From an uncultured Bradyrhizobium sp. (GTDB lineage: Bacteria > Pseudomonadota > Alphaproteobacteria > Rhizobiales > Xanthobacteraceae), in NCBI RefSeq assembly GCF_936928535.1, contig NZ_CAKZHY010000091.1:62001-126000 (forward strand): a DNA stretch of 64,000 nt, in the 5' to 3' direction. The first letter of the stretch is position 1, and each line of letters begins with the position of its first letter. The notes under the pieces are model-generated. The model was not told the origin of the DNA, did not search any database, and was given only the letters and a program-made list of their open reading frames with translations. Positions 1-4,230 of the stretch are shown one piece after another. Made by a program: the position numbers and the translations under genes.

Positions 1-386
1 TTGGCTTCGACCTGGTTGCGCAGGGCTTCGGCATCATTGGTCAGGGCGCCCAAGGTCTGGCTGGCAAGGGCGATGCTCTCGTCGTCGGGGCGAACGCGGA
101 CGTAGAATTCGGCGACGATGTCGACGCGCAGCCGGTCCTTGGTGATCAGGGACTCACGCTCCTTACGCTCGACCGTGAGCCTGAGCGTCTTCAGATTGAC
201 ACTGGCATACGAATGGAAGATCGGCAGGATCATGGCGCCGCCGTCGAGCACGACCTTCTTGCCGCCGAGGCCGGTGCGCACGAAGGCCTCGTCGCGCGTG
301 GCGCGCTTGTAGAGAATGGTGAAGATGATGCCCAAGACGATGATCAGCGCAACGCCGATCACGGCCGGGACTGCAATGTCGAACAT
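1..386 (-). CDS. Flotillin / YqiK-family membrane protein (N-terminal part; runs off the window)
   Basis: Only the first ~128 residues are present; the gene continues past the left edge. The ATG is at 384-386. An N-terminal membrane segment (residues about 4-24, rich in V, I, L) is followed by the start of an SPFH/band-7 domain, with K-R-A-T-R-D-E-A-F-V-R-T-G, G-G-A-M-I-L-P and an R-V-R-P-D-D region. This matches flotillin (YqiK/FloT), a scaffold that assembles in ordered membrane microdomains. It lies 19 bp downstream of a YqiJ-like OB-fold membrane protein, the partner found beside YqiK/YuaG flotillins in other bacteria. Family assignment is firm; the C-terminal coiled coil cannot be seen. 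Confidence 0.9.
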   Translation of the reverse strand, partial: MFDIAVPAVIGVALIIVLGIIFTILYKRATRDEAFVRTGLGGKKVVLDGGAMILPIFHSYASVNLKTLRLTVERKERESLITKDRLRVDIVAEFYVRVRPDDESIALASQTLGALTNDAEALRNQVEA

Positions 387-405
387 GACTTTCTCCAAAA
401 TTGAC

Positions 406-1068
406 TTAGCTGCTGCTTAGAGCGGGTTTGGTCGGTTTCAGTTCATCGTCGGCCCTGACCGCGACGAAACGGGTATCGACGCGATCGACCAGCAGCACCA
501 GCGTGCCCTGCGGCAGTGGCGATGAACTGGGCGCGGCCACCGCGGAGACGAAGTGGCGATTGCCGTGGATGTCGGCGACGCTGACGCGGCCGGGCGGACC
601 CTGGTCGAGTGGGCCGACGACGACCTCACCCACGCGTCCGACAAGATCGCCGAGGCCGATCGCATAGCTTTCATCCTTCGGAATGATCCGTGCGATGCCC
701 CGGCTCGCGCCGCGGACCAGCGGGACCGAGACGACGACGGCCGCGAGCGAAGCGAGACTGGCCGGCAAGGACCCGGCCACCATCCGGGCGACGTCCTGGA
801 TCAGGAAGCCGGTGATCGAGAAGGCGCCCAGTGCCAGCAGCAGGAAGATCAAGAGCGGCACGCCGCCGACATTGATCCAGGAGATGGCGTTGATGACGCC
901 GTTATCGCTCGGATGGCTGAAATCGATGCTGGTGCCGAGCATCTCGCTCAAGGAGGCCCCTACCAGCATCGTGACCACTTCGAGCGTGCCGACGATGAGG
1001 ATCATGGCCGCCGCGATCGCGAACGGCCTGACCTCCGGCGCCATGACGTGTTCGAGCAATGTGCTCAT
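406..1068 (-). CDS. YqiJ-like OB-fold inner-membrane protein (flotillin partner)
   Basis: 220 residues with hydrophobic segments at roughly 15-40, 65-90 and 95-120. A soluble C-terminal region (about 130-200) contains G-L-G-D-L-V-G-R-V-G-E-V-V-V-G-P and R-V-S-V-A-D-I-H-G, typical of the YqiJ/NfeD-type OB fold. These proteins are thought to work with flotillin in membrane organisation. The gene sits between a PspA-like gene (13 bp upstream) and flotillin (19 bp downstream), all on one strand, so a single transcript is likely. The tail (K-P-T-K-P-A-L-S-S-S) is low complexity. Exact function is unknown. Confidence 0.85.
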   Translation of the reverse strand: MSTLLEHVMAPEVRPFAIAAAMILIVGTLEVVTMLVGASLSEMLGTSIDFSHPSDNGVINAISWINVGGVPLLIFLLLALGAFSITGFLIQDVARMVAGSLPASLASLAAVVVSVPLVRGASRGIARIIPKDESYAIGLGDLVGRVGEVVVGPLDQGPPGRVSVADIHGNRHFVSAVAAPSSSPLPQGTLVLLVDRVDTRFVAVRADDELKPTKPALSSS

Positions 1069-1081
1069 GACACGATACTCT

Positions 1082-2236
1082 TCAGGAGCGCGACTTCAAC
1101 CGCGCGAGCCTTGCCGCAATCTCCTTGTCGCGATGGAGCGCGCTGAGCTCGTCGATGTCGCGCGAATACGGAATGCCCGGCGGCACGCCCGTGACGCGCG
1201 CCACGGCCCTGCCCGCACGCAGCGCCTTCGCCGCAGCGGCGGTGCCGCCACGCTTGCGGGGCGAATGCGAGGCCTGATGGCTCGCCTCAGTCTCGCTCTT
1301 TGCGAGATCGACGCGGCGCTGCTCGGCATCCTGCAGCGCCGAGAGCACGGCGCGTAGCGAAGTCACGCATTGCTCGATCTTCTCGTTGTTCTCGTCGATG
1401 GCGCGGGACAGCACCTCGAACTGTGCCTCCAGATCCATCTGCCGCGCGATGCCGGCGCGGGCCAGATCGTCGCGGCCGTCGGTGATCGCGCCCTCGATTT
1501 TGGCGGCGAGATCGGTCATCTCGCGTTCGATCTCGGTGCGGCGCGCGTTGAGGCGGTATTCCTCGGCGCGCGCGGCCGCGAGCGCATCGCGCGCCTCGCT
1601 CTCGGCGCGCTCGATCTCGCGGATGGCCTGGCCAACCACTTTCAGCTTGTTGTTGCCTTCGGCCTGCTCGATCGCGTCATAGGCGATGCCGGCGATCAGA
1701 CGTCCGACCCGGGACAGGAAGTTCTCGGGAGCGGCTGCGATGGTATCCATGGCGTTCTCCTCCTCTGGCAGACTGTTCGGCGTGACGCCGTAGTGAACCT
1801 CGAAACCGTCGTCGGTGCGGATGAGGTGCGCGGGCACGCTCTGGCCCCAGCCTTCCGCATAGCCAACGTAGTCGAAGGGCACGCTGAAGCGCCCCTGCAC
1901 GGTCGAAATCGAAATGGTGGCCGGGCCCTTGATCTTGGCGAGCTTGTCGTCGAGCGGCAGGCGGCGGCCTTGCGCCGCGCGATAGTCGGTGCGGTCGCGC
2001 AGGCCCAGCGTCACCAGCCGCGACGGCAGCGCGGTCTGTTTCCGGATCGGCTCATAGGCATGGGCATGCAGCAGTACGACGTTGGATCCCACATTATGGG
2101 TCCGAGCGACCTCATCGAGGATCTCCATCATGCGGTCATAGGCCTGGAACGTCGCCTCCATGGCGGCCTTGGCGGCCGGGTCAGGGGCTAGCCTGTATCG
2201 AAGCGCCGATGGCGCATTTCGGAGCGACGGGCTCAT
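1082..2236 (-). CDS. PspA/IM30-family protein with in-frame N-terminal TnpB-like extension
   Basis: The open frame from the ATG at 2234-2236 gives 384 residues (a GTG three codons further up is also in frame). The C-terminal ~222 residues, beginning at an internal ATG (1748-1750), are a PspA/IM30 coiled coil: K-V-V-G-Q-A-I-R-E-I-E, then long Ala/Glu/Arg helices. 222 residues is the usual PspA length. That internal ATG is preceded by GAGGAGGAG, an excellent ribosome-binding site, while the upstream ATG has none visible. The PspA protein is therefore probably made from 1750. The upstream part resembles the N-terminal half of IS605-type TnpB (listed separately). PspA binds and stabilises stressed inner membrane; the yqiJ- and flotillin-like genes downstream fit that role. 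What is uncertain is whether a fusion protein is also made. Confidence 0.75.
   Translation of the reverse strand: MSPSLRNAPSALRYRLAPDPAAKAAMEATFQAYDRMMEILDEVARTHNVGSNVVLLHAHAYEPIRKQTALPSRLVTLGLRDRTDYRAAQGRRLPLDDKLAKIKGPATISISTVQGRFSVPFDYVGYAEGWGQSVPAHLIRTDDGFEVHYGVTPNSLPEEENAMDTIAAAPENFLSRVGRLIAGIAYDAIEQAEGNNKLKVVGQAIREIERAESEARDALAAARAEEYRLNARRTEIEREMTDLAAKIEGAITDGRDDLARAGIARQMDLEAQFEVLSRAIDENNEKIEQCVTSLRAVLSALQDAEQRRVDLAKSETEASHQASHSPRKRGGTAAAAKALRAGRAVARVTGVPPGIPYSRDIDELSALHRDKEIAARLARLKSRS
1751..2236 (-). other. TnpB-like N-terminal segment (helical + WED-like), no RuvC domain
   Basis: About 162 codons upstream of, and in frame with, the PspA start. The translation has A-L-R-Y-R-L-A-P-D-P-A-A-K at the start. 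It then has L-P-S-R-L-V-T-L-G-L-R-D, T-I-S-I-S-T-V-Q-G-R-F-S-V-P-F, and P-A-H-L-I-R-T-D-D-G-F-E-V-H-Y-G-V. This is the order of motifs in the N-terminal half of IS200/IS605 TnpB proteins, just before the RuvC-I D-L-G-I motif. No RuvC motif follows; the frame runs straight into PspA. It has no internal stop, so it is either a recent relic or a kept domain. Similarity was judged by eye only. Confidence 0.5.
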
Positions 2237-2245
2237 GGAAAGCAC

Positions 2246-2268
2246 TAAAGCACCATTTTGGTGCTTTA
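2246..2268. promoter_or_regulatory. Perfect 9-bp inverted repeat at the 5' border of the TnpB-like/pspA frame
   Basis: TAAAGCACC (2246-2254), a 5-base ATTTT spacer, then GGTGCTTTA (2260-2268). It directly abuts the GTG at 2243-2245, and the half-site GTGCTTT recurs once more just inside the gene (2238-2245 region). It could be an operator for the pspA operon, an RNA hairpin in the leader, or the end hairpin of a former IS605-like element. The sequence does not decide between these. Confidence 0.45.
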
Positions 2269-2485
2269 CAAGGGGGAAGCTCGATCACGTTCCACTGATC
2301 CTGATGCACTCTATGGGTTAGTCGCTGTCGCCTGGGGCCGCGTTCAAGGCGGGCCATCACTCCTAGATGACCGCCGATCAAGACTTTCTGCATGCGCGGG
2401 TTGCAATTTTACGCAAAGGCTAGGTCGACCTGGGACGCGGGACAGAGCTGTGTCGCGCGACGTTGCGAGCAATCCTTGCGACGAC

Positions 2486-2523
2486 GCAATCCAGAGTCCT
2501 TCCGCGGAGGGATTCTGGATTGC
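2486..2523. repeat. Palindromic intergenic element between pspA and the receptor gene
   Basis: GCAATCCAGA (2486-2495) and TCTGGATTGC (2514-2523) form a perfect 10-bp stem around TTCCGCGGA. Flanks read TTGCGAGCAATCC and TTCGCTACGCTCGCAATGACGG, a common style of dispersed rhizobial palindromic repeat. The 401-bp gap 2237-2637 otherwise contains only the hairpin at 2246 and no supported gene; the frame of the receptor gene runs open into this repeat by chance. Confidence 0.7.
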
Positions 2524-2637
2524 TTCGCTACGCTCGCAATGACGGAGCAAGGAGCGTTCGCGTATTCTGATAACTCACGCCTCAGTCCGCAGATACACCT
2601 TCGCATTCTCGCGTGGTTCGAAACCGGGACACCATCG

Positions 2638-3780
2638 ATGACTCCTCCGCATCAGGCGACTGGCTCTCGCGCACGAACCGCCCGGTTACCCTGGTCGCGC
2701 GCGGCTGCGCTCGCTGGCGGGCTGGTCTTCGCACTGCTCATCTATATCGGCTGGCCTGCGGCTCAGGCTGAGCCCGCCAAGCTCCGCGTGGCGACCCGAA
2801 TCGTGCCGCCCATGGTCATCGAGAAGAACGGCACGCTGAGTGGCTTCAGTATCGAGCTCTGGAACAGCATCGGCAAACGACTGAACCGCGAGACCGACTA
2901 TATCGTGTTGCCCGATGTGAGCGAACTGCTTGACGCGGTGAAAAATGGACGAGCCGATCTCGCCATCGCGGCCATCTCCATCACGTCGGAGCGGGAGGAC
3001 AGGTTCGACTTCTCTCAGCCGATCATGAACTCGGGCTTGCAAATCCTGGTTCGCGGCACGGCCGTCAATGTCGAAGCCAATCCGCTCCGCGAGCTGATGC
3101 AATTGTTCTTCTCACGCACCCTGCTGGTCTGGCTCGGCATTGCACTGCTACTGATCCTCGTGCCGGCGCACCTGATGTTCCTGGTCGAGCGAACGCATCA
3201 CAGCGGGATCATTCCGACCAGGAAGTATTTTCCGGGCATCTTCCACGCGATGTTCTGGGCGGCGGGCACGCTGGCCACCCAGGCCGATCAGATGCCGCGG
3301 CACTGGATGGCGCGCATCGTGGCTGTGCTGTGGATGTTCACCGGGGTGGTGTTCGTCGCATTCTATACCGCGCAGTTGACGGCTTCACTGACGGTGCAGC
3401 AGATCAAGGGACCGATCAACAGCAGGCAGGACCTTGTCGGCAAGACCGTCGGCACCACGCGGGGCAGCACGGCCACGGCCTATCTGAATGAGCTCAAGGC
3501 CCAGGTTCGCGAGTTCGAGAAGGTCGATGACCTCTACAAGGCCCTGCTGGACCAGCAGGTCGACGCCGTCGTGTTCGATTCACCCGCCCTGCTCTACTAC
3601 ACCACCCATGACGGAAGCCGATTGGCGCGGACCGTCGGCGAAGTGTTTCACCGGGAAGACTACGGCATCGTGTTTCCGACCGGCAGCCCGTTGCGCAAGC
3701 AGGTCAACGAAGCGCTGCTGGGGCTCCGCGAGAACGACACGTACCAGCGGATCTACGAGGAATGGTTCGGCAAGCGCTAG
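2638..3780 (+). CDS. Ionotropic-glutamate-receptor-like protein (periplasmic binding domain plus pore)
   Basis: 380 residues from the ATG at 2638; the frame is open upstream only through a palindromic repeat. Order of parts: signal segment (~20-44); binding lobe S1 (~46-150, with I-S-I-T-S-E-R-E-D, whose Arg119 is where iGluRs hold the ligand carboxylate); membrane helix M1 (160-183); re-entrant pore loop (~202-219); helix M3 (224-252) ending F-Y-T-A-Q-L-T-A-S-L-T-V; lobe S2 (258-380, with V-F-D-S-P, D314). This is the S1-M1-P-M3-S2 plan of prokaryotic GluR channels. The pore lacks the K+-type T-V-G-Y-G and instead resembles the animal pattern F-W..G.L..Q....P-R. It is likely a ligand-gated channel or sensor; the ligand is unknown (amino acid by family). 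It is a single gene. Confidence 0.85.
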   Translation: MTPPHQATGSRARTARLPWSRAAALAGGLVFALLIYIGWPAAQAEPAKLRVATRIVPPMVIEKNGTLSGFSIELWNSIGKRLNRETDYIVLPDVSELLDAVKNGRADLAIAAISITSEREDRFDFSQPIMNSGLQILVRGTAVNVEANPLRELMQLFFSRTLLVWLGIALLLILVPAHLMFLVERTHHSGIIPTRKYFPGIFHAMFWAAGTLATQADQMPRHWMARIVAVLWMFTGVVFVAFYTAQLTASLTVQQIKGPINSRQDLVGKTVGTTRGSTATAYLNELKAQVREFEKVDDLYKALLDQQVDAVVFDSPALLYYTTHDGSRLARTVGEVFHREDYGIVFPTGSPLRKQVNEALLGLRENDTYQRIYEEWFGKR

Positions 3781-3839
3781 GTCGGGATTCAACAGCTTGT
3801 CCGCAGCATATCCACAACGACAATTCGAAAGATTTACGC

Positions 3840-3873
3840 TGGATTTGCAACGCACTTGCTGCGCACAAATCCA
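3840..3873. terminator. Hairpin between convergent genes
   Basis: TGGATTTG (3840-3847) pairs perfectly with CAAATCCA (3866-3873), with an inner CGCA/TGCG stem. It lies between the stops of the convergent receptor gene (3780) and Cys-rich gene (3885) and could end transcription from both sides. No long T run is present, so termination is inferred from position. Confidence 0.45.
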
Positions 3874-3884
3874 CAGGGCGTGCG

Positions 3885-4148
3885 TCAGCCGCCAGCCTGG
3901 TCGAACACGCTGCGGCAGGCCTCGCTCAGGCTTGAGCGGTTACGGCGCAGGCAGGCCGTGATCGCACGAACGTTGGGGATTTCGCCGGCGCAGAGCCGGT
4001 AGACGTCGGGGGTGCAGGCCCGACGCTGCTCCGGCGTGCCCTGCTGCGCATTTGCCGCTGATGCAAACAAGGTCAGGAACAGGCCGACCGTGGAGGCACG
4101 ACGCGCCCGGCTTCTCACACCCGCAAACCGCAAGAACCGCGCCTTCAT
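3885..4148 (-). CDS. Small exported cysteine-rich protein
   Basis: 87 residues from the ATG at 4146-4148, preceded by AGGAG at suitable distance. An upstream in-frame ATG exists but would put 18 basic residues before the signal peptide. A signal peptide (about 1-34, ending A-N-A-Q-Q) is followed by R-R-A-C-T-P-D-V-Y-R-L-C-A-G-E-I-P-N-V, then I-T-A-C-L-R-R-N and L-S-E-A-C. The four cysteines with C-x(2)-D-V-x(3)-C spacing match a small periplasmic Cys-repeat family common in Bradyrhizobium. Function unknown. A perfect CRP-type box lies 83 bp upstream of the start (4231-4246). Confidence 0.75.
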   Translation of the reverse strand: MKARFLRFAGVRSRARRASTVGLFLTLFASAANAQQGTPEQRRACTPDVYRLCAGEIPNVRAITACLRRNRSSLSEACRSVFDQAGG

Positions 4149-4230
4149 GACCAGTCTCCTGTCTGCCCTGCCTGCCCGGCCGCCATTGGCCGGTGTGGGC
4201 AAAGAGGTAGGAGGAATAAATCGCTGGCGA

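Follow-up and report, generated by a model that had tools for sequence, protein, structure and literature searches.

To our knowledge, the known domestications of TnpB, namely Cas12 and TldR, retain the RuvC scaffold and work with an RNA guide. Proteins of the PspA family bind stressed membranes and polymerise. According to the accessible part of the source, TldRs, which are TnpB-like nuclease-dead repressors, retain an inactivated RuvC together with a guide RNA (PMC13418256). In the survey of PspA systems by Ravi et al. (2024), repeats or fusions of PspA account for less than 2% of homologs, and the accessible part of that article does not name a fusion to TnpB (PMC11237479). Likewise, the accessible parts of PMC9239133 and PMC8987985 make no mention of a PspA-TnpB fusion, and no description of such a join was found in the literature searched, a body that took in few subscription papers and bioRxiv preprints. 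Here we describe a locus at which the N-terminal half of a TnpB homolog is joined in frame to PspA. It lies at the start of a 64,000-nucleotide stretch of Bradyrhizobium DNA, referred to below as the window.

Organization of the fusion gene and its operon

The minus-strand frame at window positions 1085 to 2284 is open for 400 codons across both parts of the gene, and its stop codon occupies positions 1082 to 1084. The fusion itself (1082 to 2236, minus strand) encodes, in a single frame, a homologue of the TnpB REC-WED region of about 162 amino acids at the N terminus (1751 to 2236) and PspA at the C terminus (1082 to 1750). Its start is likely the ATG at 2234 to 2236 rather than the GTG at 2245. 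The C-terminal part belongs to the PspA/IM30 family, matching the Pfam profile PF04012 (PspA_IM30) with an E value of 9e-13 and 48.8 bits against a cut-off of 33.9. This part also has an internal ATG of its own at 1748 to 1750, preceded by a ribosome-binding site for a PspA-only product, AGAGGAGGAG (1757 to 1766, minus strand). That sequence sits inside the E-E-E codons, just as an earlier note on this DNA had recognized in stating that these codons double as the pspA ribosome-binding site. Among 131 distinct loci, the internal ATG of PspA has a Shine-Dalgarno motif ahead of it in 128, versus 22 of 604 other in-frame methionine codons; the remaining three loci show AAAGAG in its place.

The second gene of the operon, yqiJ (406 to 1068, minus strand), encodes a YqiJ-like inner membrane protein with YqiJ_N and YqiJ_OB domains (PF21001, E value of 1e-19; PF07290, E value of 3.3e-9). 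The third is a flotillin gene, the start of which occupies positions 1 to 398 on the minus strand and which extends beyond the start of the window; in locus L179 the gene is complete and matches PF15975 (Flot, E value of 2.3e-29) and PF01145 (Band_7, E value of 3.2e-16). The same three-gene order is found in the annotation of six plasmid loci, from Agrobacterium fabrum, Rhizobium leguminosarum, R. daejeonense, two Shinella, and Bosea. Eleven plasmid records carrying the fusion were retrieved by tblastn, with ten annotated as "PspA/IM30 family protein" and one as "hypothetical protein."

A second, stand-alone PspA gene, unlinked to the operon, is present in the genome from which the window derives (G000:C173:45239-45919; E value of 1.5e-20). 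At least two PspA matches occur in 50 of the 54 intact fusion bearers of Bradyrhizobium.

The N-terminal part is a TnpB REC-WED half

The earlier note had read TnpB motifs into the roughly 162 open codons ahead of PspA and had proposed a structure search as a check, and both fold and profile comparisons now agree with that reading. An AlphaFold2 model of the domain, based on 22 homologs, reached a pLDDT of 89.4 and consists, in order, of a strand, three helices, and further strands. In a Foldseek search of the PDB, ranks 1 to 19 were all taken by members of the TnpB/Cas12/Fanzor/TranC superfamily, with ISDra2 TnpB at the top (E value of 9.6e-4). With VIA-align 2, ISDra2 TnpB (8ex9) was matched at a Z score of 10.6 with an rmsd of 3.7 over 133 residues. 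The best 50 of the 87 chains with Z scores of at least 2 belong to the same superfamily, and 40 chains have a Z score of at least 8, a value below which a match can reflect a common arrangement. The viral proteins that match the fold best are TnpB-like transposases, with a top E value of 1.3e-3.

An hhalign comparison of the domain family with one clade of five TnpBs gave a probability of 98.9% and a P value of 2.3e-17, a value that carries selection bias, since the five had been picked because they surfaced in a tblastn search with a member of the fusion's domain family; the fold result is independent of that selection. The match covers TnpB columns 6 to 166, and RuvC-I (LGVDLG) starts at about column 170 in this clade, so the domain stops where RuvC-I should begin, another point on which the earlier note was borne out. 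A hidden Markov model of the TnpB N-terminal half scored 26 of 26 family members at 23 to 51 bits, the best of 1040 shuffled sequences reaching 4.5 bits. When seven generic alphaproteobacterial TnpBs were used for the profile comparison, the similarity did not reach significance (P value of 0.12). Searches of Pfam, NCBIfam, PHROGs, and PDB sequences with the domain gave no significant match, the sole Pfam match to the N-terminal part being a sub-threshold one to HTH_OrfB_IS605 (E value of 0.27).

By fold and by profile, the N-terminal 162 amino acids are thus homologous to the REC-WED half of TnpB, a WED domain with an inserted helical REC that comprises the TAM-DNA-reading module and part of the RNA-binding module, captured here without RuvC. 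The RuvC nuclease (D-E-D) and the CCCC zinc finger are both absent from the fusion, the frame instead entering PspA, where the full-length model shows long helices. That model has a pLDDT of 75.8 and a pTM of 0.43, with the head confidently predicted at residues 10 to 152 or thereabouts and low confidence at residues 154 to 194, a pattern that fits a flexibly tethered head without proving the tether. A profile search of the window's genome found no PF01385 (OrfB_IS605) protein.

Two plasmid sequences resemble the domain outside any fusion. In Thermobacillus composti plasmid pTHECO01 (L236, positions 1501 to 2031), an open reading frame of 177 codons including the stop, annotated as a hypothetical protein, resembles a TnpB N-terminal half ending near RuvC-I; it looks like either the remnant of a TnpB or a second REC-WED protein that stands alone. 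An unannotated region of Rhodothermus marinus pRMAR01 (L243, approximately 1501 to 1851) is weakly similar to the domain by tblastn (E value of 2) and may be a TnpB remnant.

A conserved palindrome within a promoter-like region

Positions 2246 to 2268 of the window form a perfect 10+3+10 palindrome, TAAAGCACCA-TTT-TGGTGCTTTA. The perfect 23-bp inverted repeat of the earlier note is therefore perfect as claimed, but 23 bp is its full span and not the length of an arm. The note's reading of this hairpin as the border of an element gives way to that of a promoter operator, because the palindrome is conserved and lies between -35-like and -10-like elements. In relatives, the conserved core consists of two 7-bp arms separated by 7 nucleotides, which in the window is AAAGCAC-N7-GTGCTTT (2247 to 2267). 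A promoter-anchored scan of 129 distinct loci, which favors AAA and TTT ends plus an upstream TTG, found the arms paired at 7 of 7 positions in 94 loci, at 6 of 7 in 29, and at 5 of 7 in 6. An unanchored scan for the best palindrome in upstream regions, which takes a chance palindrome instead of the operator in L132, L138, and L146, gave 7 of 7 in 95 of 123 distinct loci versus 0.7% of shuffled regions. The operator tests leave out two deletion remnants (L110 and L139) and a locus at a contig end (L222). The letters of the arms differ among lineages and the pairing is retained, as in AAAGCAC/GTGCTTT, AAAGGAC/GTCCTTT, AAAACAC/GTGTTTT, and AAAGGAT/ATCCTTT.

The exact site occurs once in the assembly of the window and in 48 of 98 Bradyrhizobium genomes overall, one in each with no second copy anywhere, and 46 of those 48 genomes carry the domain. 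The two genomes with the site and without the domain (G048 and G092) equal in number those containing a reversed control pattern (2 of 98); the G092 site, outside the fusion, is intergenic. Among the 54 intact bearers, the exact site is missing from eight, and in the seven of these that were inspected a single base had changed.

The start codon follows the palindrome by 10 to 12 nucleotides in 127 of 129 distinct loci, the exceptions being L146, with an operator paired at 5 of 7 positions, and L257. The palindrome occupies the spacer between TTGAAA-like and TATAnT-like elements, as in a sigma70-like promoter. In the window these are a -35-like TTGTAA (2266 to 2271, minus strand), which is TTGAAA in most of 32 representatives outside Bradyrhizobium, and a -10-like TTTAGT (2244 to 2249, minus strand) located 7 nucleotides before the ATG. 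Matches to the promoter consensus averaged 9.0 of 12 in 32 of the 34 representatives (L146 and L257 left out) versus 5.6 in shuffled sequences, and were fewest in L116 (6 of 12) and in L101 and L112 (7 of 12). A consensus promoter scan lists none in the window, whose elements are weak, and the promoter claim rests on the relatives. Since the -10 element ends 6 to 7 nucleotides before the start codon, a leaderless transcript is expected. The operator of L257 is located 2 nucleotides before the ATG, after a -10-like TATATT identified by eye. A location in the promoter spacer, or in L257 just before the ATG, would suit a blocking repressor better than activation.

The palindrome is best read, on this comparison of sequences, as a conserved candidate operator. 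Two other readings of it were rejected. A terminator or a transposon end does not agree with a palindrome conserved at the promoter, and the terminator scan was empty. An NtrC-type site, which we take to be GCACC-N5-GGTGC, was set aside because the relatives do not retain the inner C/G pair.

Proposed function and its alternatives

The earlier note had offered, as the second of two options, an exapted TnpB half that forms a fusion with PspA and may act as a regulator. This is the option that we favor; the TnpB origin is firm, and the regulatory role is what we infer. Specifically, we think it probable, with modest confidence, that the operator is bound by a guide-free and RuvC-less TnpB module, which thereby represses the PspA-YqiJ-flotillin operon to which it belongs, that PspA acts as the stress sensor, and that the internal site supplies free PspA. 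The REC-WED half, having neither nuclease nor guide scaffold, would serve as a protein-only DNA-binding head. A dimer, formed via PspA or via the domain itself, would bind the palindrome that lies within the promoter of the operon, and the bound fusion would cover that promoter and so repress the genes for the fusion, YqiJ, and flotillin. Upon membrane damage, the PspA part would bind and polymerise at the membrane and remove the repressor from the operator, whereupon the operon would be made. Because PspA binds stressed membrane and polymerises, the pulling of the head off the DNA by membrane-bound PspA would be the natural signal. Two products are predicted: the start codon of the leaderless transcript would give the full fusion, and the internal ribosome site would give the repair effector, a PspA without the TnpB-like head whose N-terminal amphipathic helix is free.

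A different role for the TnpB-like half, which we regard as unlikely but deserving of serious attention, is to mediate protein interactions, or to act like a chaperone, in the assembly of PspA. It would then stand where related PspA-YqiJ-flotillin operons have the CesT/Tir-like YjfI, and an unlinked ordinary regulator would read the operator. Dyads of CesT/Tir and PspA accompanied by flotillin and YqiJ are indeed known from the accessible part of PMC11237479, and the TnpB-like half fills that position here; the domain is also balanced in charge and not basic, with 19 K+R versus 19 D+E. Yet the fold and sequence matches of the domain point to a DNA- or RNA-reading module, and with one exact site per genome, almost always in company with the domain, a regulator acting in trans would likewise need to be a dedicated one. 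The neighborhoods of the six annotated plasmid loci share no regulator gene; three plasmid loci each have a different one within about 3 kb, of the LysR, ROK, and GlxA types. A CesT/Tir identity of the domain itself was considered and found no support: the window's domain had no match to DUF2170, the family of YjfI, up to an E value of 10, nor did 22 family members up to an E value of 1, and no CesT protein is among the fold matches listed for the domain.

Also counting against an assembly module is L251, from the same genus as L143 and L144, where the domain is a separate frame of 185 codons with no PspA behind it. This locus keeps a perfect operator, followed by yqiJ (PF21001, E value of 1.3e-21) and a band-7 gene (PF01145, E value of 1.6e-18). 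Retention of both the TnpB-like half and the operator after the loss of PspA indicates that the operator goes with the TnpB-like half, in what is a single case, the PspA-free form being seen at one locus of 164.

Covariation between the domain and the operator bears on the same question. The residue after the LP[SA] motif is R where the half-site bears CA and Q where it does not, without exception, in 22 and 12, respectively, of 34 representatives and in 116 and 13 of 129 distinct domains. This column is the sole one of 144 domain columns to separate the operator classes, it and the CA criterion both having been picked after looking. In the profile alignment and a further alignment, it corresponds to F77 of ISDra2 TnpB, a residue that the accessible part of PMC10097598 places among those contacting the TAM (Y52, S56, K76, F77, Q80, T123, and N124). 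The pattern involves three changes on the tree and two to three independent pairs, which are too few for significance, a point that the assembly reading has in its favor. As a control, the 212 columns of the PspA half include 2 that separate the operator classes and 3 with a switch at both L262 and L257. Since PspA is not expected to read DNA and its columns give a similar background, the R/Q match is suggestive only as a hint of DNA reading.

One objection to a guide-free repressor is that the TAM reader of known TnpBs carries a guide RNA. The corresponding alternative is that the TnpB-like half still binds RNA, either its own mRNA or an unlinked guide, and works as an RNA-guided or RNA-tethered regulator like TldR, which we consider rather improbable. 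TldR offers a precedent (PMC13418256, in its accessible part), and in TnpB the WED domain is in contact with the guide RNA scaffold; however, many of the guide-RNA contacts of ISDra2 TnpB are made by RuvC (both from the accessible part of PMC10097598), which is absent here. An Rfam search of window positions 1 to 4200 gave no match of note, its lone weak match, to CRISPR-DR29 at 3972 to 4029 on the minus strand (21.1 bits against a gathering threshold of 39; E value of 0.5), being probably due to chance. The downstream genes abut, with those for PspA and YqiJ overlapping by one base in L234, and so leave no room there for a guide. The palindrome, moreover, would suggest a protein dimer over guide pairing.

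Distribution and purifying selection

The domain is present in 55 of 98 Bradyrhizobium genomes, one of which (G084) holds a deletion remnant, and G033 contains an additional copy truncated at the end of a contig. Sampling across the order found it in 24 of 397 genomes, one of them (G457) with a remnant, representing 7 of 142 genera; the corresponding counts are 6 of 385 genomes for the class, two of the six being Bradyrhizobium, 4 of 17 and 8 of 76 for two further orders, and 4 of 5 for one family. Identity of the domain among these finds falls to about 30%. Beyond the Alphaproteobacteria, the searches covered plasmids, by tblastn. One sequence titled Frankia sp. RB7 (L048; JAUEPE010000003.1) has 94% identity to the Bradyrhizobium domain, and its organism label is probably wrong.

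The frame runs through the join in 148 of 151 loci, which represent 126 distinct proteins with some genomes represented twice; the exceptions are the contig-end locus L222 and the remnants L110 (in G084) and L139 (in G457). A PspA motif follows the domain in all 123 distinct intact proteins, and the length from domain to stop varies from 361 to 383 codons with the frame kept throughout. The domain had a median dN/dS of 0.078 and PspA one of 0.066 in 99 comparisons, all with the window and hence mutually non-independent, restricted to domains of unchanged length and to dS above 0.05, with PspA taken as its first 150 amino acids and L251 left out of the PspA tests. In the two remnants, both from Bradyrhizobium, most of the fusion has been deleted so that the end of the domain is joined to the end of PspA, and the domain has an apparent frameshift as well.

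A dN/dS this low and similar to that of PspA, together with the open loci, argues against decay, as the earlier note had already argued from the open frame. When related loci were compared, as it had proposed, the segment was never found broken beside an intact PspA, and L110 and L139 had lost most of PspA too. The note's first option, in which an IS605-type insertion has decayed ahead of pspA and only PspA is translated, from the internal start, can point to a genuine internal ribosome site and to the two remnants. It is contradicted, however, by the open loci, by the purifying selection where a decaying element would have a dN/dS near 1, and by a domain spread over seven genera and other orders of the class, the two remnants being the exceptions among the 151 loci, and we regard it as practically untenable.

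Comparison with known systems

With TnpB (IS200/IS605 and IS607) and Cas12f, the fusion shares the REC-WED fold, the order of motifs, and sequence homology to one TnpB clade; it differs from them in having no RuvC or zinc ribbon and in being joined to PspA. TldR is likewise a domesticated TnpB, and the fusion is probably a transcriptional repressor as well. The RuvC of TldR is dead but present, whereas the fusion has lost it, and an Rfam search of window positions 1 to 4200 did not identify a guide RNA. Only the REC-WED half survives in the fusion, and it is conserved in several orders of Alphaproteobacteria. We put forward, as a tentative idea that may well prove wrong, that the TAM-reading half of TnpB has become a transcription factor independent of guide RNA and fused to an ESCRT-III-family protein, such that one polypeptide both senses membrane damage and switches its own operon, two starts in the one gene yielding the repressor fusion and the free effector. 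If true, the TAM-reading surface of TnpB would be reusable as a stand-alone DNA-binding domain, and PspA would have gained a built-in DNA-binding switch.

From the side of PspA, the nearest relatives are the PspA-YqiJ-flotillin operons with the CesT/Tir-like YjfI, which, in the accessible part of their description, have the genes for PspA, YqiJ/YuaF, and band-7/flotillin in common with the locus studied here (Ravi et al. 2024, PMC11237479). The TnpB-like half fused to PspA replaces their CesT/Tir-like partner. The regulatory logic that we propose is that of the PspA-PspF system of Escherichia coli, in which PspA is a stress sensor controlling transcription of its own operon (PMC11237479, in its accessible part). 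There, PspF is a separate AAA+ enhancer-binding protein, whereas in the fusion the DNA-binding part would reside in the same polypeptide as the sensor and would act at a sigma70-like promoter.
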